Assembly: GCA_029260965.1 (NCBI GenBank)
Contig: JAJDCG010000001.1
Span: 509,803 to 549,591 of the forward strand
From: Candidatus Levyibacteriota bacterium
GTDB taxonomy: Bacteria; Patescibacteriota; Microgenomatia; Levybacterales; UBA12049
Reading direction: 5' to 3'
DNA length: 39,789 nucleotides
Shown here: positions 9,262 to 38,412 of the stretch, one piece after another
Numbering within the stretch: position 1 is the stretch's first letter
Layout of the letters: every line of letters begins with the position of its first letter
Notes under the pieces: generated by a model
What the model was told of the DNA's origin: nothing
Databases searched by the model: none
The model's input: only the letters and a program-made list of their open reading frames with translations
Program-made: the position numbers and the translations under genes

Positions 9262-10065
9262 TTATAGCTTAATACCAAGTCTTCTTGCAATTACAGATTT
9301 TGCTTGATTTGAGACAGCATTATCAAGGGGAGCAAGTGTTACTTTTTGTTTATATTTAGTCGTGATTGCTTTTGTAATTAGCCAATCAGCAATTCCTGGA
9401 TTCTTTGGAAGTAATGGTCCGTGCAAATATGAACCTATTGCGTTTTTATAGACTACACCTTCTGTACCATCTTCACCGTTATTTCCATATCCTTTGATAA
9501 CCATTGCGAAGGGTTTAGCATACTTACCCAGATAGGTACGTCCACCGTGATTTTCAAAGCCAACTATGATCCCAGAGTGTAGTATTGGATATTTTGTGTT
9601 GAGTATATTTTTGTTTATAATTTTGGCAATGACGTTTCCGGTTAAGCGTTTTTTTTGAGGTCCTGCGTGTATTGTTTCTATATCAAATATGCCTAATCCA
9701 TCTAAGCGTTTTCCAATTGATGGTTCGTAGTATTTTCCAAAAAGCTGAGGTGCACCACAGACAAAAAGTGCGGGTACTTCTTTCTCGATAAGCTTTCTGA
9801 TTTCAGTTTCATGTTTTTTTAAATTTTGAATTACAATTGATTGTTCGCGGTCTTGTGCACCACCTGCAAAGAGAAGATCGATAGTTTTTAGATCAGGGAT
9901 CTTGGACCTTTGATCAATGTTAATAATTTTTACTTCGATTCCTCGCCATTCGCAACGTTTCTGAAGCGTCATTATGTTACCCTTGTCCCCATATGTGCTC
10001 ATCAGCTCAGGGTAAAGCCAACCGATATTTAGCTGATAGCTTTTGGCTTTTAGCTTTTGGGTCAT
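9262..10065 (-). CDS. gatD: Lipid II isoglutaminyl synthase, glutaminase subunit GatD
   Basis: 267 aa class I glutamine amidotransferase of the CobB/CobQ-like type. Catalytic cysteine Cys103 in FVCGAPQLFG and histidine His215 in GSYLHGPLLPKNP. GWLYPELMSTYGDKGN at the N-terminus is typical of GatD. With MurT it amidates the D-Glu of the peptidoglycan stem peptide to D-isoglutamine, known mainly from Gram-positive bacteria. The gene overlaps murT by 4 bp, the standard pairing, which makes this assignment stronger than homology to cobyric acid synthase. Not to be confused with archaeal tRNA-GatD. Confidence 0.93.
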   Translation of the reverse strand: MTQKLKAKSYQLNIGWLYPELMSTYGDKGNIMTLQKRCEWRGIEVKIINIDQRSKIPDLKTIDLLFAGGAQDREQSIVIQNLKKHETEIRKLIEKEVPALFVCGAPQLFGKYYEPSIGKRLDGLGIFDIETIHAGPQKKRLTGNVIAKIINKNILNTKYPILHSGIIVGFENHGGRTYLGKYAKPFAMVIKGYGNNGEDGTEGVVYKNAIGSYLHGPLLPKNPGIADWLITKAITTKYKQKVTLAPLDNAVSNQAKSVIARRLGIKL

Positions 10066-11366
10066 AGAATTCTCCTCCCTGTTAAGATCTTCCTGGCATC
10101 AAGCATACCTGAATAGGTAGGTAGCATGAAAAGTATTTGATCGTCTTCAAGATATGAAATTGCTTTTTCAATTCCATTTTTAAGATTATCTATTACTTTA
10201 ACTCTGGTTTGATAATCGGTAATGCCCATTTCGTATTTGAGTCTGAGGGCCATGTCGTATGCCCGATCTCCTGCAACAAATATATTTTTAAATTTGCTAA
10301 TTCGGTTCATTTCTGTATCCCATATCCATGAAATATCTCTTCCATCAGGAATGCGATCATTCAGTATGATCAATAAATTTTTTGCATCTAAATCAAGAAT
10401 CGTGTTTAAGGATTGATTGAAGCTTGTCGGATTTTTAGATAGATAGATCTGTATGTTTTTATTTTTATATTTTATATTCTCCTGCCTACCAAATGCTGGT
10501 TTAAAATCCTTTATAGATTGCTTGATTATGGCAGTTTTCATCTTTAGATGTTTTAAAAGTGCAATAGCAGCATGCGTGTTGTATTTATTGTAGGTTCCAG
10601 GAAGCGGGTAATTTTCAAAAAAATCAACATCAGGATTTGGTCTTTTAAATTTGCATTTACGACATTTCCAGTCGCCGAGATGAGAAAAGATTTTATTTTT
10701 GTAAATTAGTTTGCCATTGCAATTTGGGCAGTAAGAAGAGTCTGTGGCATCATCCTGGGGGTGATTATTTTTATGATTAGAATCATGAAGTCCGAAATAT
10801 AGCTTTTTATTTTTTGTATCCTTGCCCATATATGCGATCAGGGGATCATCACTATTTAGAATAAGTGTTGTTTTTTTACTCAGAAAACTAATCGATTTTT
10901 TCCATTTTTCTCCGATAGTGTTGATCTCTCCATACCTATCCAGTTGATCGCGGAATAGATTGAGAAGCAGTAATGCATCGGGAGTGACCTCTTTCAATAC
11001 TAGGGGTAGATTGTTTTCGTCAATCTCAAATATTGCGTAGTCAGCATCTAGCCCACCTGTTGCTGAGGAGTGCATGATAAGCGTAGATGCGATGCCGTTT
11101 AGGAGATTTGCTCCAGACTCATTTTGAATTACTTTTCCGTTATTATGTCTTAGTGCATTTGTAATGAGCGAGGCGGTAGTCGTTTTTCCATTGGTTCCTG
11201 CGATAATAACAATTTTTGTTTTAGATTTTTTAAGAAATTGCTTTATAAATTTTTTATTTAGGTTAAGAGCAATGTGTCCTGGCCATGTCGAGCCGTTGCC
11301 AAGGTTCAAGACTTTTGCAAACTTTGAAATAGCCTTTCCAGAAATAATTAATGGATAGTTGAGCAT
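10062..11366 (-). CDS. murT: Lipid II isoglutaminyl synthase, Mur ligase-like subunit MurT
   Basis: 434 aa. Mur ligase central domain with the ATP-binding loop GTNGKTTT (57-64) and the NESGANLLNGIAS segment typical of MurT. A Cys4 zinc ribbon is inserted at about 209-236 (YCPNCNGK ... KCRKCKF), a hallmark of MurT versus other Mur ligases. The C-terminal domain (DUF1727-like) contains LLIILNDRIPDGRDISWIWD. It activates the glutamate carboxylate of lipid II with ATP for amidation by ammonia from GatD. It lies directly after htpX (6-bp gap) and overlaps gatD. Indicates that this lineage makes or remodels amidated peptidoglycan. Confidence 0.94.
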   Translation of the reverse strand: MLNYPLIISGKAISKFAKVLNLGNGSTWPGHIALNLNKKFIKQFLKKSKTKIVIIAGTNGKTTTASLITNALRHNNGKVIQNESGANLLNGIASTLIMHSSATGGLDADYAIFEIDENNLPLVLKEVTPDALLLLNLFRDQLDRYGEINTIGEKWKKSISFLSKKTTLILNSDDPLIAYMGKDTKNKKLYFGLHDSNHKNNHPQDDATDSSYCPNCNGKLIYKNKIFSHLGDWKCRKCKFKRPNPDVDFFENYPLPGTYNKYNTHAAIALLKHLKMKTAIIKQSIKDFKPAFGRQENIKYKNKNIQIYLSKNPTSFNQSLNTILDLDAKNLLIILNDRIPDGRDISWIWDTEMNRISKFKNIFVAGDRAYDMALRLKYEMGITDYQTRVKVIDNLKNGIEKAISYLEDDQILFMLPTYSGMLDARKILTGRRIL

Positions 11367-21851: not shown

Positions 21852-22640
21852 ATGATAACTTCAGAGGTTTTACGAAAAAAAGTAGAAGATTTTAAGTTAG
21901 AAGTACTTGACTGGAAAGTTTTTCCCGTTTATTGGATTAATACTCCAGATTTTGGGAGGGGATTTCTGGGCGCAAAAGGATCGCCAGAGCAGATGCAGAA
22001 AGAAGTAGCGCGGATTATTAAAGCAAGCAGTAATGCAGACGAAGAGATAAATGTAGTTAATGCAGGGAGTGCTAGAAATTTTTTATATAGAAATCAGATT
22101 GGTATTGATTGTTCGGGATTTGTTTTTCACCTTCTCAGCAAAAGCATAGGAGGTACAGGACGCCTGGTGGATACCTTGTTCGTTCCTCGTGATACAGTTA
22201 TTGCCGCATCTGAAAAAGACAGCTGGAAAAGAGTTCGTGAATTAAGCGATAAAGATAAAAGAAGGCTTCCCGAAATGGTCCCTATGGAATGGGTATGCAA
22301 CACTTTTAGTAAAGAACCTCAATTTCTTACAAATGTCAAAAGTTTTTCAAGCGATGAGACTTCTGCGATAGTTACAGACTATTCAGAAGTTACTGTTGGA
22401 GACATTGTAATTATGGAAAAAAAGGGAAGATATAAACATATGGGAATTGTGACTGATGTAAATGGTATGGAATGGGAAGTTTGGGACTCTTATCGTGAAG
22501 ATGATGGATATGGGGGAGTTAGAAGACACGAGGTAGAAATAGTAAATCCGAGTTTGTCACTAAATCTTCAGCACTGGACGGATTTTGATACTACGCGGTA
22601 TGATGCTTACTCTGTTAGGAGACTAAATGTTTTTCAGTAA
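21852..22640 (+). CDS. NlpC/P60-like cysteine peptidase-fold protein without signal peptide
   Basis: 262 aa, no signal peptide or membrane helix. A Cys-His pair fits the NlpC/P60 fold: Cys87 in GIDCSGFVFHLL and His196 in GDIVIMEKKGRYKHMGIV. The third polar residue is not certain. The N-terminal 80 residues and the region between Cys and His (about 100-175) are larger than in standard NlpC/P60 domains and I do not recognise them. Canonical members cut peptidoglycan stem peptides outside the membrane; the lack of an export signal is odd and suggests a cytosolic substrate, or release by other means. Divergent from uvrB, upstream of lexA. Family-level call only. Confidence 0.65.
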   Translation: MITSEVLRKKVEDFKLEVLDWKVFPVYWINTPDFGRGFLGAKGSPEQMQKEVARIIKASSNADEEINVVNAGSARNFLYRNQIGIDCSGFVFHLLSKSIGGTGRLVDTLFVPRDTVIAASEKDSWKRVRELSDKDKRRLPEMVPMEWVCNTFSKEPQFLTNVKSFSSDETSAIVTDYSEVTVGDIVIMEKKGRYKHMGIVTDVNGMEWEVWDSYREDDGYGGVRRHEVEIVNPSLSLNLQHWTDFDTTRYDAYSVRRLNVFQ

Positions 22641-23415: not shown

Positions 23416-24114
23416 ATGGGAACTCTTTTTGTAGTGTCTACTCCAATAGGCAATCTCAAGGACATAACTTTTCGTGCAGTTGAAACATTGTTTGCGGTAG
23501 ATGCAATTGCATGCGAAGATACAAGACGAACAGGCTTGTTGCTTGAAAATTTGCTGCATCATGTTGAGAGTAAATCAAAACCCAAGCTTGTTTCGTATTA
23601 CGAGCAAAATGAAGCTCAAAGAATTCCAGAAATTATTTCATTTCTTAAGAATGATTTTAGTATGGCGCTTGTCAGTGATGCAGGCACTCCTTTAATATCA
23701 GATCCAGGCTTTAAACTCGTTCGCGAATGCCTTAAAAAGGGAATAAAAGTTGAGTCACTTCCTGGCGCATCATCTGTCTTGACAGCTTTGACATCCTCAG
23801 GATTGCCAACAGATAAATTTTTCTTTGCAGGTTATCCACCACACAAATCAGGACACAGGAAAACATTTTTTGAAAATATCAAAAAATCCCAGGAATTTCT
23901 CAAAACAACCGTAATCCTTTTTGAGGCTCCTCACAAGCTAATCAAAACATTGAGTGAAATGAAGGAAGCCTTGGGTGATATTGAAATAGTACTTGCGCGG
24001 GAAATGACTAAAATACATGAAGAGCTTCTTTGTCAGAAGATTTCAATAGCTCTTGAATTTTACAAAAAACGCAAACCCAAAGGGGAATACGTATTGCTTT
24101 TTAATTTGAGCTAA
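23416..24114 (+). CDS. rsmI: 16S rRNA C1402 2'-O-methyltransferase RsmI
   Basis: 232 aa, tetrapyrrole-methylase fold. LFVVSTPIGNLKDITFRAVETL at the N-terminus, ACEDTRRTGLLL, then VSDAGTPLISDPGFKLVREC and LPGASSVLTALTSSGLPTDKFFFAGYPP are all diagnostic. It methylates the ribose of C1402 in the decoding centre with S-adenosylmethionine. It lacks the C-terminal extension of longer homologues (about 280 aa). The last 4 bp overlap the convergent fusion gene. Confidence 0.95.
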   Translation: MGTLFVVSTPIGNLKDITFRAVETLFAVDAIACEDTRRTGLLLENLLHHVESKSKPKLVSYYEQNEAQRIPEIISFLKNDFSMALVSDAGTPLISDPGFKLVRECLKKGIKVESLPGASSVLTALTSSGLPTDKFFFAGYPPHKSGHRKTFFENIKKSQEFLKTTVILFEAPHKLIKTLSEMKEALGDIEIVLAREMTKIHEELLCQKISIALEFYKKRKPKGEYVLLFNLS

Positions 24115-25451
24115 TCTCTGTTTTCTTTTTTGTTTCTTATTTCTTTTTTAACTATTTTTCCATCCTCATTTAGTGTGTAAACATATACTTCGCCGACTGC
24201 TATTTCAAGAGAAGAAATTTCGTCATCAGGTATGTCCTCCAAATATTTAACAAGTGCCCGGAGGCTGTTTCCATGTGCTGAGATTATCACATTTTTACCG
24301 CTTTTCAGTTTGGGCAAGATTATTGTTTCATAATATGGAATGACCCTGTGATAAACATCTTTCAGTGATTCACCATTTGGTAGCTGATAATCCCAGCTTC
24401 TTCTTATTTTTTGAAACATTTCATCTCCTACTTCACTTTTTATATCCCATTTGTTTTTTCCAGTATAGTCTCCATAATCACGCTCGTTAAGAGCCTGGTT
24501 TTCTAGAACTGGTACATGGATTTGCCCTTTGGATTTGAGAAGTTCACTTAGGGTTTGTTTGGCCCTTTTGAGTACTGATGTACATGCAAGGTCCAGCTTG
24601 ATATCTCTCAGATGAGAACCTGCGTCCCTTGCATCATCTCGGCCTTTATCGCTCAGATCAACATCTGTCCATCCTGTCCAGAGGCCGCGAGCATTCCAAA
24701 CAGATTGTCCATGTCTGACTAAAACAAGTTTTGTGTCATTCAAATTAGTTATAGGTTTTATATCTGTGACAAAAATATCAGTATCCTTAATTGCAAATTT
24801 AATAAGCTGTGGAAAGTGAAAATGTTCTTTTACTTTTTTCGCAATTTGAACCAGAGTCTTGGTTTGTTTATCTAAAATTATTTGTTCTGAAATCGGATTT
24901 AAATCAATTGTGGATATAGAACCTGTTATTTTTGTATTTAAGTCTTCCATTAGTATTAAAGCTTTTGGATTTGGGAGTTTGTTTATATTTGAAAGTAAGT
25001 TTTGGGGTGAAAAAGCATGACTCCAAAGTTTTCTTATTGCTTGAAAAAGCTTTTCCTCATTTTCAATATTGGTGATTGCTTCGTCAGATAATTGATCAAT
25101 AAGATTTATAGAATTGTCGGTTCTCTTTAAATTTTGAAAAGAGCTCAGCAGTAATGTTTTTAATTTCAGAGGAAAAAATTCATCTTGTATTAATTTTTGA
25201 ATGTGGTTTGAAACTTGGGATACTGATTCGTGTTTTTTAAAATGGATCGTTGAGAGAAGAAGTTTAATTTTTGGGTTTAGATTGTTTGATTGAAAAAAAA
25301 GTTCATATGCACTAGTGGTCACGACGAACCCATCAGGAATTTTTACTTCCAAATCAGCTATCCTTGATAAGGCGTAAGCGTAATCTCCGATAAGTCTTTT
25401 GTCTTCTCTTACTGCATTTTTTAGTTTTACAATCAATACTTCTTCTGTCAT
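24111..25451 (-). CDS. Fusion: degenerate PEP-synthase-type N-terminal domain + phosphoglycerate mutase
   Basis: 446 aa from the second ATG (25451), which lies 8 nt after a CATAAT -10 box; the track start is one codon earlier. Residues 241-447 (track numbering) are a GpmA-type phosphoglycerate mutase: LVLVRHGQSVWNARGLWTGWTDVDLS with catalytic His248, NERDYGDYTG and SAHGNSLRAL. It interconverts 3- and 2-phosphoglycerate in glycolysis. Residues 1-240 resemble the nucleotide-binding N-terminal domain of PEP synthase/pyruvate phosphate dikinase: KIPDGFVVTTSAYELF at the start, an IRKLWSHAFSPQNL block, and IFVTDIKPITN at the end. The RSSA-type ATP-site motifs are not visible, so this half is probably inactive or regulatory. 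I know of no described fusion of this kind. Confidence 0.75.
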   Translation of the reverse strand: MTEEVLIVKLKNAVREDKRLIGDYAYALSRIADLEVKIPDGFVVTTSAYELFFQSNNLNPKIKLLLSTIHFKKHESVSQVSNHIQKLIQDEFFPLKLKTLLLSSFQNLKRTDNSINLIDQLSDEAITNIENEEKLFQAIRKLWSHAFSPQNLLSNINKLPNPKALILMEDLNTKITGSISTIDLNPISEQIILDKQTKTLVQIAKKVKEHFHFPQLIKFAIKDTDIFVTDIKPITNLNDTKLVLVRHGQSVWNARGLWTGWTDVDLSDKGRDDARDAGSHLRDIKLDLACTSVLKRAKQTLSELLKSKGQIHVPVLENQALNERDYGDYTGKNKWDIKSEVGDEMFQKIRRSWDYQLPNGESLKDVYHRVIPYYETIILPKLKSGKNVIISAHGNSLRALVKYLEDIPDDEISSLEIAVGEVYVYTLNEDGKIVKKEIRNKKENRD

Positions 25452-25459
25452 CATTATCC

Positions 25460-25551: not shown

Positions 25552-25947
25552 ATGTCTATGAACAATAATGATATGGCTAAATTTAGAGAGCTTTTCCTGC
25601 AGACAGCGAGTGCGTATATTGAAGAAATAAAAAGCAATTTTTTAGAGTATTTAGAGGATAAAAGTAATATGACTGTAGTTGAAAATATTTTTGTTGCATC
25701 TCATTCTTTAGCAGGGCAAAGCTCAATGATGGGATATGTGGGGATTGCTAGTTTTGCAAGTGTGGTGGAAAATATTTTTAGAGCGAAAAAAAACCAGAAT
25801 AGAGAGGTAACAGATGAAGAGATAAATCTCATAAAAAGTGCTCTCGAAAAAGTAAATCAATCATTAGTGAGAATAAAAGATGGAGATGACGAAATCAAAA
25901 TTACTGATGAAATTTCAAGACTTAGGGATATAGTAGGTATTCAATAA
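25552..25947 (+). CDS. HPt (histidine phosphotransfer) domain protein
   Basis: 131 aa, all helical. The HPt motif is ASHSLAGQSSMMGYVGIASFASVVE, with phospho-accepting His51 (compare HTLKGSSGMMGF in CheA P1-like domains). The usual Lys after the His-x-Leu is Ala here. Helices before (about 8-35) and after (about 85-115) complete a four-helix bundle. It would relay phosphate between a histidine kinase and a receiver, or act as a docking module. It is followed one base later by a receiver protein and then pilus motor genes, so it likely controls pilus activity (inference). No histidine kinase is encoded in the window. Confidence 0.82.
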   Translation: MSMNNNDMAKFRELFLQTASAYIEEIKSNFLEYLEDKSNMTVVENIFVASHSLAGQSSMMGYVGIASFASVVENIFRAKKNQNREVTDEEINLIKSALEKVNQSLVRIKDGDDEIKITDEISRLRDIVGIQ

Positions 25948-25948
25948 T

Positions 25949-26323
25949 ATGAAAATTTTAATAATAGAAGACGATAAATTTTTCCGCGAGTTCTATGTTC
26001 ACAAATTAAAAGGAAAAGGGGTTGATGTTGATTCTGCTACTGATGGGGTTGAGGGTCTAGCAAAGATTCAGTCTTTTTCGCCTGATATTATCCTCCTTGA
26101 TCTTATTATGCCAAACAAGGATGGTTTTGAGGTATTGAAAGAGATGGCAGCACAGAACCTAGTCGACCAGATTCCTGTATTAATTTTTTCAACTCTCGCA
26201 CAGCAGTCAGATGTTGATAAAATAAAACAACTTGGCGCTGCAGAATATGTAGATAAGAGCTTTTTTGATTTTGACAAATTATTTGTTCGAATTACCGAAC
26301 TTTATAATGCAAAACATGCATAA
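25949..26323 (+). CDS. CheY-like response regulator receiver protein
   Basis: 124 aa single receiver domain with no output domain. Acidic pocket Asp8/Asp9, phospho-acceptor Asp51 in IILLDLIMPNKDGF, switch Ser81/Thr82 in LIFSTL and Lys103 in YVDKS: all functional residues are present. It follows the HPt gene directly and precedes pilB by 8 bp. Comparable single receivers (PilG/PilH type) regulate twitching motors elsewhere; here the same role is inferred from position. Cytoplasmic. Confidence 0.92.
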   Translation: MKILIIEDDKFFREFYVHKLKGKGVDVDSATDGVEGLAKIQSFSPDIILLDLIMPNKDGFEVLKEMAAQNLVDQIPVLIFSTLAQQSDVDKIKQLGAAEYVDKSFFDFDKLFVRITELYNAKHA

Positions 26324-26331
26324 GCCTGCCC

Positions 26332-28017
26332 ATGGTTATCACAGATGAACAGCTTAAAAAGCTTATTGTTGATGTAGGACTTCTCGATGAAGCAAAGCTT
26401 GCTGAAGTCGAAAAGTACGCTAAGAATTCAGATCTACCTCTTTATGATGCTTTAATTGAAAAGGATATTGCAACTGATGAGAATCTTGGAATTATAGTTT
26501 CAGACTATCTTAAAATCCCCTTCATCGTTCTCGGAAAAATCTCTATTCCAGAAAATGCGTTCAAGATCATACCAGAACGTATTGCCAGAAAATATAAAGT
26601 GATTCCTTTTGAACGTGGTCATGAGGGTGTGAAGTTGGCAATGGTTGACCCTAGTAATAAGCTCATACAGGAGACAATAGAGCACAAGACCGGTGAAAAG
26701 GTAATTCCCTACATGGCAACGGAAAGAGATATTTACGGCAAGTTGTTTATTTACAGAAAAGATCTTCAAAAAACATTTGATGTACTGGTTAATGAGCAAC
26801 TTAAAAATGTAGGAAAGAAAGGAGCAGGTGATGCGCCAATTGCAAAGATTGTTGACTTGATTATTAAATATGCATATCAAGACTTGACTTCAGATATTCA
26901 TATCGAACCAGAGGATAAGGATACCCTGGTGAGGTTCCGAATAGATGGAGTTCTTCATGATGTGCTTTATCTTCCTAAAAAATATCACGAACAAGTGGTA
27001 ACAAGAATAAAGGTATTATCATCTCTGCGTACTGATGAGCACTTGGCGCCTCAGGATGGAAAAATGAGCATGGATCTTGAAGAGGAACGTCTTGATATTA
27101 GGATTTCTATACTTCCTATTGTTTATGGAGAAAAAGTCGTTATGAGGCTTCTAGCATCTCACTTTAGGCAATTTTCTTTGGTAGATTTGGGTATGACTCC
27201 AGAGGATCTTCAGAAAGTTAATAATGGCTTTTCGAAATCATTTGGTATGGTTCTCTCAACTGGACCAACAGGCTCAGGTAAAACTACATCTATTTATTCC
27301 ATTCTCAAGATTGTCAATACTAGGGAAAAAAATATAACTACAATTGAAGATCCAGTAGAATATCGTATCAAAGGCGTTAATCAAATTCAAACAAACAAAA
27401 AGGCAGAGCTTACCTTCGCATCAGGACTACGTTCAATTCTTAGACAGGATCCAAATATTATTTTTGTTGGTGAGATAAGAGATAGCGAGACTGCGGGCAT
27501 TGCTGTCAATGCAGCCCTTACTGGACATTTGGTTTTATCAACTCTACACACAAATGATGCATCGGGAGCTCTTCCTCGTCTGATAGACATGAAGGTTGAG
27601 CCATTTTTGGTAGCATCAACGGTGAATGTCATAATCGCTCAGCGGTTGATCAGAAAGATCTGTGAAATGTGCAAAGCATCAATTGACATAACAAAAGAAC
27701 AGCTTTTGAAAAACTTTCCTGAGTCAGTCATCGGAAAATATTTTGGCGATAAGGAAACTCCTCGGATTTATAAAGGAAGTGGCTGCGCTGTATGTCATGG
27801 TGCTGGGTATGCAGGTAGGATCGGTATATTTGAAGTTCTTGAAGTTTCACCAGAAATTAAGAAATTGATTAGCGAAAAAAATGATGCTAATGCAATACTT
27901 AATCAGGCAATGCAGGAAGGAATGGATACAATGCTTGATGATGGCATGAAAAAGATTATAAAAGGTCTTACAACAATTGAGGAAGTACTCAGGGTTACAA
28001 AGATTGAAACGCTTTAG
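26332..28017 (+). CDS. pilB: Type IV pilus assembly ATPase PilB/GspE
   Basis: 561 aa. N-terminal MshEN-like domain (about 1-150: 'DIATDENLGIIVSDYLKIPFI'), then the secretion-ATPase core with Walker A GPTGSGKTT near 310-318, the Asp box before it (SDIHIEPEDKDTLVRFRIDG), Walker B IIFVGEIRDSETA near 375 and the His box LVLSTLHTND. A C-terminal zinc module has CEMC (about 444) and CAVCHGAGYAGR (about 484). Hexameric cytoplasmic motor that extends pili. Full length. No PilT-type retraction ATPase is found in the window. Confidence 0.96.
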   Translation: MVITDEQLKKLIVDVGLLDEAKLAEVEKYAKNSDLPLYDALIEKDIATDENLGIIVSDYLKIPFIVLGKISIPENAFKIIPERIARKYKVIPFERGHEGVKLAMVDPSNKLIQETIEHKTGEKVIPYMATERDIYGKLFIYRKDLQKTFDVLVNEQLKNVGKKGAGDAPIAKIVDLIIKYAYQDLTSDIHIEPEDKDTLVRFRIDGVLHDVLYLPKKYHEQVVTRIKVLSSLRTDEHLAPQDGKMSMDLEEERLDIRISILPIVYGEKVVMRLLASHFRQFSLVDLGMTPEDLQKVNNGFSKSFGMVLSTGPTGSGKTTSIYSILKIVNTREKNITTIEDPVEYRIKGVNQIQTNKKAELTFASGLRSILRQDPNIIFVGEIRDSETAGIAVNAALTGHLVLSTLHTNDASGALPRLIDMKVEPFLVASTVNVIIAQRLIRKICEMCKASIDITKEQLLKNFPESVIGKYFGDKETPRIYKGSGCAVCHGAGYAGRIGIFEVLEVSPEIKKLISEKNDANAILNQAMQEGMDTMLDDGMKKIIKGLTTIEEVLRVTKIETL

Positions 28018-29591: not shown

Positions 29592-31643
29592 ATGATAGAT
29601 TTTTTGAAAATTAGTAAATTTAAAGACAAGAAAGGCTCTACAGGTCAGACGTTTATTGAGTTGATAATAATTATGGGGCTTGCAGTCCTGATAATTCCTG
29701 CGATAACCTCAGGTCTTATTAGTTCAAGGGAGGGTACCCCGCAACAGGAAAATAGACTTCAAGCAGCATCTATTCTTAAGGAGACCGAGTCAGCTGTGAG
29801 AAGCATCAAGAATGAAAGCTGGCTCAACTTTGATGCAGTTGTGGCTGGTGATCCCTATCATCCTCAGATTGCAGGTACATCATGGAGTCTTGTGGCTGGT
29901 GGTGATACTCTCGGAGGAGTTTATGATAGAGAGGTAGTAGTTAGTGATGTATATAGAGATGCCTCAGGTTCAATAGTGCAAACAGGTGGAGTTCTTGATC
30001 CTTCAACAAAAAAAGTTGATATTCGTATTGAATGGTCAAATCCTCGCCCATCTGAATTGGAATCTACTATATTTTTAACTAGAACAAAAAATGATACATT
30101 TGTTCAGACCCTTGATAGTGATTTTAACCCTGGAGATTTTATCGAAACTGTTGTGACTAATAATTCAAATGGGGAGGTTGAGCTAAATCAATCTTTTGGA
30201 ACAGCTGATTGGTGTAAGCCTCAGGATTCTCAAATTGCCAAATTGACACTTCCCAAGCCTGGTAACGCAATATATATTCCGTCAATCGGTTCGGCACAGA
30301 TAGCAACAGGAGATGGTGGCTCTGGGGAATCTCTTGTGGATGTAGATATCGCATTTTCTCCCCCACCTGCTCCTCCGAATGCAACAATTGATGGCACCTA
30401 CATAGGAAATTATCAGACCAATGCTATTTTTAGTGATGGAAATTATGCTTATTTAGCCATAAATGGTAGTAGTAAGCAGGTGAGAATTCTAAATGTTTCT
30501 TCAAAACCTTATACAGAAGTAGGGACAATCACTCTTCCCAGCAATACAAACGCAAACGGAATTTATGTAGATGGCAACACAGCCTATGTTACAAGTAATG
30601 ACGTTTTATATAAAGTTAATGTTACAAATAAGAATGGATCACATACGCCAAGTAACTCTGTAGCAATGAAAGCCCAATTTTGGTTTGAGGATGTTATAGC
30701 CAGGCAAGTGGTAGTCAGAGAGGACCGTGTTTTTGTAGCAGTGGAAGGAACTCTCTTCGGTCTACAAATTTTCAAAACAAATGATTTAAGTCTATTCGGT
30801 GTTTCCAAACCTACGGTAAAGCAGTTGCCAGAAGGGTTGTATGTTAATGAGGATGGATCAAGAGCATATATTGCTTTCAGTGGTGGGAGCGGACTTTTTC
30901 AAAAGGGATTTTTTATTCTCAACACAATTCCGACCAGAAAGGAATCTGTATGGATTCCTGGATTTGCGTTTTATTATCATCATATAGTTGGGAGTTACAA
31001 TACCAAGGCTACAATTCCTCGAGGTATGACACTTGCACCAGGAAATGCAAATAGAGCGCTTATCGGAGGAATAGGGGGAACATATCAGTATCATGTTGTT
31101 GATATTTCCAATGAATCAAAGCCTGTTTTTTGTGGGGGACTAAATATCCCACAAGGCGTTACAGGAGTTGCTGGTGCACTTGATCAATACACAAATGTGT
31201 ATTCATATCTTCTGACAGGTTCGGGGAATAAAGAGTTGAGGATTATTCAGGGAGGTGCAGGAGGAGGCGGTGGTGGAGGCTACTCTCCATCCGGAACTTT
31301 CACTGGAGATACATTTGATGCAGGAGAAAAATCAGCTTTCAATAGATTTGAGGCAACTATTAGTGAGCCTGTTAATACTGAAATCAAAATGCATGTTGCG
31401 GTTGGGCCTGATGGAGCAGCAGGTTGTGATCCTGCAGTTTTATCATACGTGGGTCCAGATGGTACCTCAAGCACGTACTTTACTCCAAATGGTTCTGTGA
31501 TTGCAGGTTCTATCCCGATGGGCGTATTGGCTGGATATTATGAGAATCCGGAAAGATGCTTTGGTTATAAAGTTTATTTTGAAACAAGCACGTCTACATC
31601 TACGCCTGTATTTGAGGATATTGTTGTCAATTATTCACAATAA
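29592..31643 (+). CDS. Large pseudopilin with beta-propeller-like region (putative tip adhesin)
   Basis: 683 aa. Prepilin-like start: leader to Gly18, then QTFIELIIIMGLAVLIIPAI with Glu at position 5 of the mature form (PilV/GspI-like). A pseudopilin-type globular part runs to about 175. Residues about 205-555 form repeated strand motifs of LVIVD/propeller type (NAIFSDGNYAYLAING, GIYVDGNTAYVTSNDVLYKV, GLYVNEDGSRAYIAFSGG, ending ELRIIQGG). A glycine linker (GGAGGGGGGG) leads to a C-terminal beta domain (about 570-683) with two cysteines. I infer a pilus-tip subunit displaying a binding propeller, comparable in idea to PilY1 but on a pilin stem. Propeller call is by eye. Confidence 0.72.
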   Translation: MIDFLKISKFKDKKGSTGQTFIELIIIMGLAVLIIPAITSGLISSREGTPQQENRLQAASILKETESAVRSIKNESWLNFDAVVAGDPYHPQIAGTSWSLVAGGDTLGGVYDREVVVSDVYRDASGSIVQTGGVLDPSTKKVDIRIEWSNPRPSELESTIFLTRTKNDTFVQTLDSDFNPGDFIETVVTNNSNGEVELNQSFGTADWCKPQDSQIAKLTLPKPGNAIYIPSIGSAQIATGDGGSGESLVDVDIAFSPPPAPPNATIDGTYIGNYQTNAIFSDGNYAYLAINGSSKQVRILNVSSKPYTEVGTITLPSNTNANGIYVDGNTAYVTSNDVLYKVNVTNKNGSHTPSNSVAMKAQFWFEDVIARQVVVREDRVFVAVEGTLFGLQIFKTNDLSLFGVSKPTVKQLPEGLYVNEDGSRAYIAFSGGSGLFQKGFFILNTIPTRKESVWIPGFAFYYHHIVGSYNTKATIPRGMTLAPGNANRALIGGIGGTYQYHVVDISNESKPVFCGGLNIPQGVTGVAGALDQYTNVYSYLLTGSGNKELRIIQGGAGGGGGGGYSPSGTFTGDTFDAGEKSAFNRFEATISEPVNTEIKMHVAVGPDGAAGCDPAVLSYVGPDGTSSTYFTPNGSVIAGSIPMGVLAGYYENPERCFGYKVYFETSTSTSTPVFEDIVVNYSQ

Positions 31644-37383: not shown

Positions 37384-38412
37384 TTATTCCTCCATTAGTT
37401 TTTTGAATTTTTCTACCAGATCAACGGGTGTAGGGTCTTGGTTGTAGCCAAGCGCTAGGTAATATGAAGTAAATTCACCTAGTGTCAGAGCCCATGAGAG
37501 TTTGTAGAAAGCGTTATTACCCTCTAGGGTGATAATCTCCACATCTGCACCGTTTTTACGTAGGAGGTCTGCTGTGATATCTATTCTTTTGATGCTGCGT
37601 GGATGATCTTCTGGATCCTTGAGGGAGATTATGAAGAATTTACCTTGCATATGTGTGTATCCTATCATCTCATTATGGTTCAGTTCAGGAAAAAAATTCC
37701 AGAATGCAGGAGTTTTGCTGTTTTCATTGAATTTGATTTTCCAGACCATGGCAAGTGCCTTGTATCTGAGGGAAGAGTGTATGACTGGAGTCTTACCCTG
37801 TATAAGGGTTGCAAGCTCTTTTCCTCTTTTTTCAAGCTCAGGTAGTGCTAATTTAATTTTTTCTACTTCTGTTAATATTTCTTCAGCTGTGTCAGGTGCA
37901 AGTTTCTGATTTATAAGTAGCTGCAAAAGTGCTGCAAAGAAGTAGCCTGTTGCAATACGGGGTTGAAAATTTTCAAATGGAATAGGTAGTTTAATATGAG
38001 GAATGTTGTTTGTTTTGCACATTTCTTCGATTCTCCCCCCGCTTGATAAACCAATGCATGGAAGATTGTTTTTGAGCGCTTCTTCAAATGAGGAGATAGT
38101 TTCTTCTGTATTTCCTGAGTAGGAGGAGATAATATTAAGTGAGTTTTTATATGCCTCAGGTGGCAGGGTGTAAAAGCGATTTTGGTAAAGATTTATGTGT
38201 TTGTCTGTTTTTTTTGTCTTTAGTAAGTCTGAGAGATAGATTCTGAGGATGTTTACATAAAGTGCGGATCCGCCCATGCCTGATACAGTAAAGCTGTCAA
38301 AATCGCCTTTTATTTGAATGTTTTTGGCAATCTCAAATCCTTTTGCAAATTGATTTGGAGTTTCCAGAATCATTTGTCTGAAATTATATGGATCCAGTGG
38401 ATTTTTATTCAT
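37384..38412 (-). CDS. Bifunctional phosphoglucose/phosphomannose isomerase family protein
   Basis: 342 aa, double SIS-domain isomerase of the archaeal-type PGI/PMI family. Motifs: VSGMGGSALYVNILR (phosphosugar loop), IISSYSGNTEETISSFEEAL, and LNHNEMIGY with the catalytic Glu/His region near the C-terminal half. Interconverts fructose 6-phosphate with glucose 6- and mannose 6-phosphate. Its neighbours upstream are an IMPase-family phosphatase (12 bp) and a phosphomannomutase, so the three genes form a sugar-phosphate operon feeding nucleotide-sugar or glycan synthesis. Full length. Confidence 0.92.
   Translation of the reverse strand: MNKNPLDPYNFRQMILETPNQFAKGFEIAKNIQIKGDFDSFTVSGMGGSALYVNILRIYLSDLLKTKKTDKHINLYQNRFYTLPPEAYKNSLNIISSYSGNTEETISSFEEALKNNLPCIGLSSGGRIEEMCKTNNIPHIKLPIPFENFQPRIATGYFFAALLQLLINQKLAPDTAEEILTEVEKIKLALPELEKRGKELATLIQGKTPVIHSSLRYKALAMVWKIKFNENSKTPAFWNFFPELNHNEMIGYTHMQGKFFIISLKDPEDHPRSIKRIDITADLLRKNGADVEIITLEGNNAFYKLSWALTLGEFTSYYLALGYNQDPTPVDLVEKFKKLMEE

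Follow-up and report, generated by a model that had tools for sequence, protein, structure and literature searches.

A shrunken PEP-synthase ATP-grasp domain in frame with a phosphoglycerate mutase in a Candidatus Levyibacteriota genome

What does a degenerate piece of PEP synthase (PEPS) do at the N-terminus of a phosphoglycerate mutase? The question is raised by one gene within a window of 39,789 nucleotides, which is the whole stretch of DNA analysed here, from the assembly of a Candidatus Levyibacteriota bacterium (G000; 796 kb, two contigs, 93% complete). The gene (24111..25454, minus strand) starts with ATG and encodes 447 amino acids, without internal stop codons and with the frame open across the join of its two domains. 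A Pfam search of the protein found PF01326 (PPDK_N) and PF00300 (His_Phos_1) and no other domain. Residues 1–236 (24747..25454, minus strand) make up the degenerate ATP-grasp domain and residues 241–447 plus the stop codon (24111..24734, minus strand) the mutase (GpmA). Between them lies the short linker NLND (residues 237–240; 24735..24746, minus strand), placed from the codon listing and the AlphaFold2 strands, the last of the N-domain ending at residue 234 and the first of GpmA beginning at 241.

Two domains in one reading frame

The C-terminal half had been taken for a GpmA-type mutase with its catalytic residues in place from the letters of the DNA, and this assignment holds. PF00300 matches residues 243–436 with E=1.2e-42, the dPGM model TIGR01258 scores 205 bits against a cut-off of 81.7, and the alignment shows R247, H248, N254, R297, E324 and H394 all to be there (the RHG motif, N, R, E and the second H). 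This half is 70% identical to the GpmA of G001, a genome of the same genus. As a side observation, the second catalytic histidine (H394 in the window) is a serine in 12 of the 45 aligned GpmA rows (G050, G014, G063, G005, G061, G016, G031, G013, G092, G064, G022 and G006), some of which come from genomes with apparently normal PEPS and enolase.

The claim that the N-terminal half is an eroded nucleotide-binding domain of the PEPS/PPDK type was confirmed as well, both by profile and by predicted structure. PF01326 was found with E=1.3e-18 and 67.8 bits against a cut-off of 27, and it is the sole PPDK_N match in a scan of the whole assembly. The match consists of two collinear stretches limited to profile positions 4–95 and 261–315, and the part of the profile between them is missing from the fusion protein. 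Full-length PEPS models stay far under their cut-offs (TIGR01418: 63 bits against 740), neither the swivel domain PF00391 nor the PEPS C-domain PF02896 (PEP-utilizers_C) matches within the 447 residues, and the N-domain alignment stops where GpmA starts. Residues 1–243 were modelled by AlphaFold2 from a 30-row alignment including relatives, giving a pLDDT of 94 and a pTM of 0.89. In a Foldseek search of this model against the PDB the top matches were all ATP-grasp domains of the PPDK/PEPS/RPH type (best E 1.3e-13), with a TMq of 0.82 to the rifampin phosphotransferase 5hv6_A and of 0.78 to the PEPS 2ols, and with HpeI (9goj) as the second best match. Chance similarity to PEPS is ruled out by the Pfam score, the confident fold and the Foldseek matches; residues 1 to about 236 are what is left of the PPDK_N (ATP-grasp) domain of a PEP synthase, reduced in size and predicted to be well folded.

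We regard it as highly improbable that the gene does not give one two-domain protein, be it through an assembly error or through an internal start that yields a separate GpmA. A candidate for such a start exists in the linker, where residue 238 is encoded by TTG in the same frame just ahead of the GpmA start. Against this, the frame passes the join stop-free, the GpmA part does not begin with an ATG, and by eye no Shine-Dalgarno-like AGGAGG can be seen just upstream of it. An artefactual join, which the sequence-only reading had named as a danger to its proposal, also looks unlikely given the well folded N-domain prediction and the synteny of both flanks with G001, G060 and G014. In these three relatives as in the window LexA and RsmI lie on one side and Hpt, a response regulator, PilB and PilT on the other. 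The convergent neighbour is the RsmI-like gene (23416..24114, plus strand), a flank which is also conserved in G108, and the divergent flank consists of the genes for the Hpt-domain protein, the response regulator and PilB (25552..28017, plus strand), with the Hpt-domain protein and a small response-regulator-like gene at 25552–26323 directly before pilB. Two further proteins of the region gave only Pfam matches below cut-off: a 683-aa protein of the pilus-type cluster (29592–31643), 56% identical in G001, and a 262-aa protein between the UvrB and LexA genes (21852–22640) with weak CHAP/NlpC/Amidase_6 matches.

The sequence-only reading had also proposed to look for the same fusion elsewhere. 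With the fusion protein as query and one match spanning both halves as the criterion, no second case was found among 82 genomes of the order, in a class sample of 374 genomes (E threshold 1e-66) or in a phylum sample of 380 genomes (E threshold 1e-72), thresholds at which a more distant fusion could be missed in the two latter samples. An apparent open frame of 24243 aa behind GpmA in one relative (G029:C12, L076) is spurious and stems from masked N bases. Open-access papers, an incomplete set of the literature, yielded no report of the fusion or of the short degenerate PEPS proteins described below.

The ATP site

From the sequence it had been proposed that the extra domain senses ATP, AMP or pyruvate and thereby regulates glycolytic flux. 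The predicted fold and its ATP-grasp ancestry speak for binding of a nucleotide, pyruvate or another metabolite in order to regulate the mutase, and the ATP domains of RPH and PPDK are established to respond to nucleotide by a change of conformation (PMC4844700). The residues speak against it. Of 17 ATP-site positions that are invariant in 14 canonical PEPS, the fusion retains at most two acidic letters. The K22-type catalytic lysine (Lys of GGK) is replaced by Y, the RSS block reads I-D-Q with the loop bearing RSSA shortened, the GQQ, GLGE and PDHY blocks are deleted, the E of EWA is K, and in QTRP the Q has become D and the R has become K. The changes thus hit Lys, Arg, Ser, Glu and Gln in the ATP site, and the absence of the RSSA motif that had been noticed at first sight is borne out, its block being deleted or replaced. 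RPH-Lm lost its activity when Lys22 was exchanged for Ala, and with Arg117Ala it no longer conferred resistance (PMC4844700).

With the ATP-site residues lost an ATP sensor is unlikely, and judged by its residues the N-domain is catalytically dead. PEPS binds pyruvate in its C-terminal domain, and as this domain is absent from the fusion protein, pyruvate sensing by the N-domain is likewise unsupported. Sensing of ATP, AMP or pyruvate was therefore rejected as the leading idea on the loss of ATP-site residues, and ligand sensing by the N-domain in general is in our opinion quite improbable.

Relatives and the surroundings of the orphan mutase

In most relatives gpmA is a separate gene, often located behind ppsA and eno, and about 15 relatives carry a short degenerate PEPS (pseudo-PEPS) of 345–485 aa (G001, G060, G014, G017, G018, G043, G052, G055, G106, G107, G108, G008, G058 and others). 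Of ten analysed with Pfam, all contained PPDK_N and nine matched the swivel domain PF00391 to some degree, six of these over the cut-off. The alignment shows that the ATP-site residues are lost in most pseudo-PEPS too. It would be false to say the same of the swivel histidine for every pseudo-PEPS, because the aligned His is kept in G001, G018, G043, G058, G008, G069 and G107. Most pseudo-PEPS adjoin gpmA or an eno-gpmA pair, and those of G008 and G058 have LexA and UvrB genes as neighbours, no gpmA close by and a PGI-like gene just upstream; a bacterial PGI-type isomerase is encoded in the window at 37384..38412 (minus strand).

Full-length yet degenerate PEPS are found in G006, G053, G030 and G027, and these look like possible intermediates. 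Such long PEPS-like proteins, degenerate in the ATP site, lie at L041 3645–5759, L079 3845–6076, L092 3344–5380 and L049 2–2023, and the swivel histidine is gone in three of them and present in that of G027.

Syntenic with the fusion locus are the loci of G001, G060 and G014, where the loss of the ATP site goes along with a position beside gpmA and between rsmI and the Hpt/response regulator/pilB genes. In G001 a spacer of 54 bp separates the gene of the pseudo-PEPS (346 aa) from gpmA (208 aa). The window has neither the swivel domain nor this spacer, as expected if some 0.4 kb had been deleted in frame from a G001-like ancestor. In the gene tree the pseudo-PEPS do not form one secure clade, the branches being long and the support weak, and the number of decay events cannot be deduced from it.

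The metabolic setting makes a link of the fusion to PEP and glycolytic flux, as it had been suggested before, doubtful. Neither enolase nor pyruvate kinase nor a PEPS C-domain (PF02896) was found in the 93% complete source assembly, and since no enolase was found GpmA would not feed PEP synthesis by the usual route. Phosphoglycerate kinase is present, and so is a protein of the EPSP-synthase family, which could be MurA, a PEP user; MurT/GatD-like genes lie in the window at 9262–11366. Similarly, no enolase and no PEP-utilizers_C match were found in G001 and G014. In G018, G043, G017, G055 and others the genome encodes another PEPS C-domain at a different place. Enolase and pyruvate kinase have been described as patchy in the CPR and other fates for the intermediates have been suggested (Jaffe et al. 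2020, PMC7304191); the passages of that paper concerned with this mention neither a pseudo-PEPS nor the fusion.

In the enolase beside the pseudo-PEPS of G043 (L051 2220–3473), G055 (L054 2637–3890), G052 (L058 2747–4000), G106 (L098 5880–7076) and G107 (L097 4844–5547), catalytic or metal-site residues are lost in the blocks examined. The D246-type Asp is changed to N (kept in G106), D320 to G or S, and the DEGG block is altered, the enolase of G107 being partial. Between species of genus g52 the altered enolase is 66–68% identical and the pseudo-PEPS 44–55%.

Constraint, decay and comparison with known systems

Is the N-domain kept for a purpose or just tolerated? In every pseudo-PEPS pair compared the differences follow the order of codon positions 3 > 1 > 2, for example 0.38/0.26/0.61 at positions 1/2/3 for G008 and G058, and the window–G001 pair shows the weakest contrast with 0.53/0.41/0.59. 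This order would fit proteins under constraint; dS is saturated, and the codon-position contrasts were used in its place. Conservation of the N-terminal half had been named as a check at the outset. Foldable pseudo-PEPS are kept in relatives, and the N-domain diverges fast, the copy in the window being 30% identical to that of G001 where GpmA is at 70%. With 27% identity to canonical PEPS against 22% for the G001 domain, the N-domain of the window stands closer to them, and it has the shorter branch in the tree (1.93 versus 3.85); hence the fusion has not sped up decay relative to the unfused relative.

The explanation we prefer, and to which we give an about even chance of being right, is that the N-domain is a pseudoenzyme domain which neither binds ATP nor catalyses and which acts as scaffold or stabiliser tied to an orphan mutase. 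As the comparison of the loci suggests, an ancestral ppsA-eno-gpmA locus would have lost its PEP-synthase activity, and PEPS would have shrunk in place to a pseudo-PEPS of 345–485 aa made of an ATP-grasp remnant and a degenerate swivel domain. In the source genome the swivel domain would have been lost too, and the ATP-grasp remnant would have been joined in frame to GpmA by the deletion of about 0.4 kb, again if the ancestor resembled G001. The N-domain, tethered through roughly six linker residues, might then stabilise, position or dock GpmA by its fold, and GpmA, with its catalytic residues being kept, probably still moves or removes phosphate on phosphoglycerates. The codon-position contrasts, the closeness of the window N-domain to canonical PEPS, its short branch and its confident predicted fold all suggest that the domain has a function. 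Against the preferred explanation stand the fast divergence of the N-domain, the weakest codon contrast in the very pair that includes the window, a fusion known from one genome, a pseudo-PEPS kept in G008 with no close GpmA found and the insecure grouping of the pseudo-PEPS in the tree.

The divergence, the weak contrast and the single occurrence are at the same time arguments for the main rival, a passive relic from a decaying operon in which a chance in-frame deletion produced a tolerated N-domain without function and only GpmA matters. Long branches and a reduced genome without detected enolase, pyruvate kinase or PEPS C-domain agree with it, and the N-part may have stayed stop-free only because GpmA lies downstream. 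Its weak points are the predicted fold of the window N-domain with its pLDDT of 94, the open and foldable pseudo-PEPS retained in many genera and the clear codon contrast of standalone pseudo-PEPS pairs with 44–55% identity, the two last of which bear on the family more than on the fused copy. We take a passive relic to be a serious possibility, though well short of even probability.

As a third option the remnant could have taken up a different role, for instance as a regulator like PspR, a PEPS-like protein without PEPS activity that turned into a repressor (PMC10948481). The pseudo-PEPS of G008, for which no close GpmA was found, persists nevertheless, so that the role of pseudo-PEPS may not depend on GpmA. 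The DNA-binding region of PspR is, however, its ligand-binding domain, which is absent from the fusion protein, and a regulator of this kind appears extremely improbable here.

What is surprising is the broader picture, in which pseudo-PEPS and pseudo-enolase are kept around a GpmA that is intact. A more far-reaching idea, which we put forward only tentatively and consider rather unlikely as it stands, is that in several genera of this family lower glycolysis lost its catalysts and kept their folds. The pseudo-PEPS, and in G043, G052, G055, G106 and G107 also the pseudo-enolase, would be conserved as partners without catalysis for a GpmA that is itself intact and has a non-glycolytic role, and the fusion would be the covalent form of such a complex. 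Should the non-catalytic role be true, the loci would form a natural series in which an enzyme turns first into a pseudoenzyme and then into a fused partner domain, all in one operon, and they would make it possible to test what a phosphoglycerate mutase is doing in a genome without detected enolase. Should there be decay only, one could still read from them how lower glycolysis is taken apart in a reduced genome.

Compared with known systems, the N-domain shares homology and fold with PEP synthase (PpsA; TIGR01418, PF01326; PDB matches 2ols and 8a8e) but is without its ATP-site residues, its swivel His domain, its PEP-utilizers_C domain and the middle of the PPDK_N domain itself. Residues 241–447 correspond to GpmA (TIGR01258; closest PDB entry 1fzt), from which the protein differs by the N-terminal pseudo-PEPS domain and by its genome without detected enolase. 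The standalone pseudo-PEPS of the relatives resemble the fusion in the loss of the ATP site, the shortened middle and the same or an equivalent locus, mostly by gpmA; they differ in still having a degenerate swivel domain and in being separate genes. PspR from Haloferax mediterranei is likewise a PEPS-like protein in another role, but it keeps the ATP, His and ligand domains and acts via DNA binding (PMC10948481). HpeI (9goj) of the two-component kinase HpeHI also has an ATP-grasp domain of the PEPS/RPH type apart from the catalytic swivel domain, and in contrast to the N-domain described here it is a working ATP-binding kinase component (PMC12167813).
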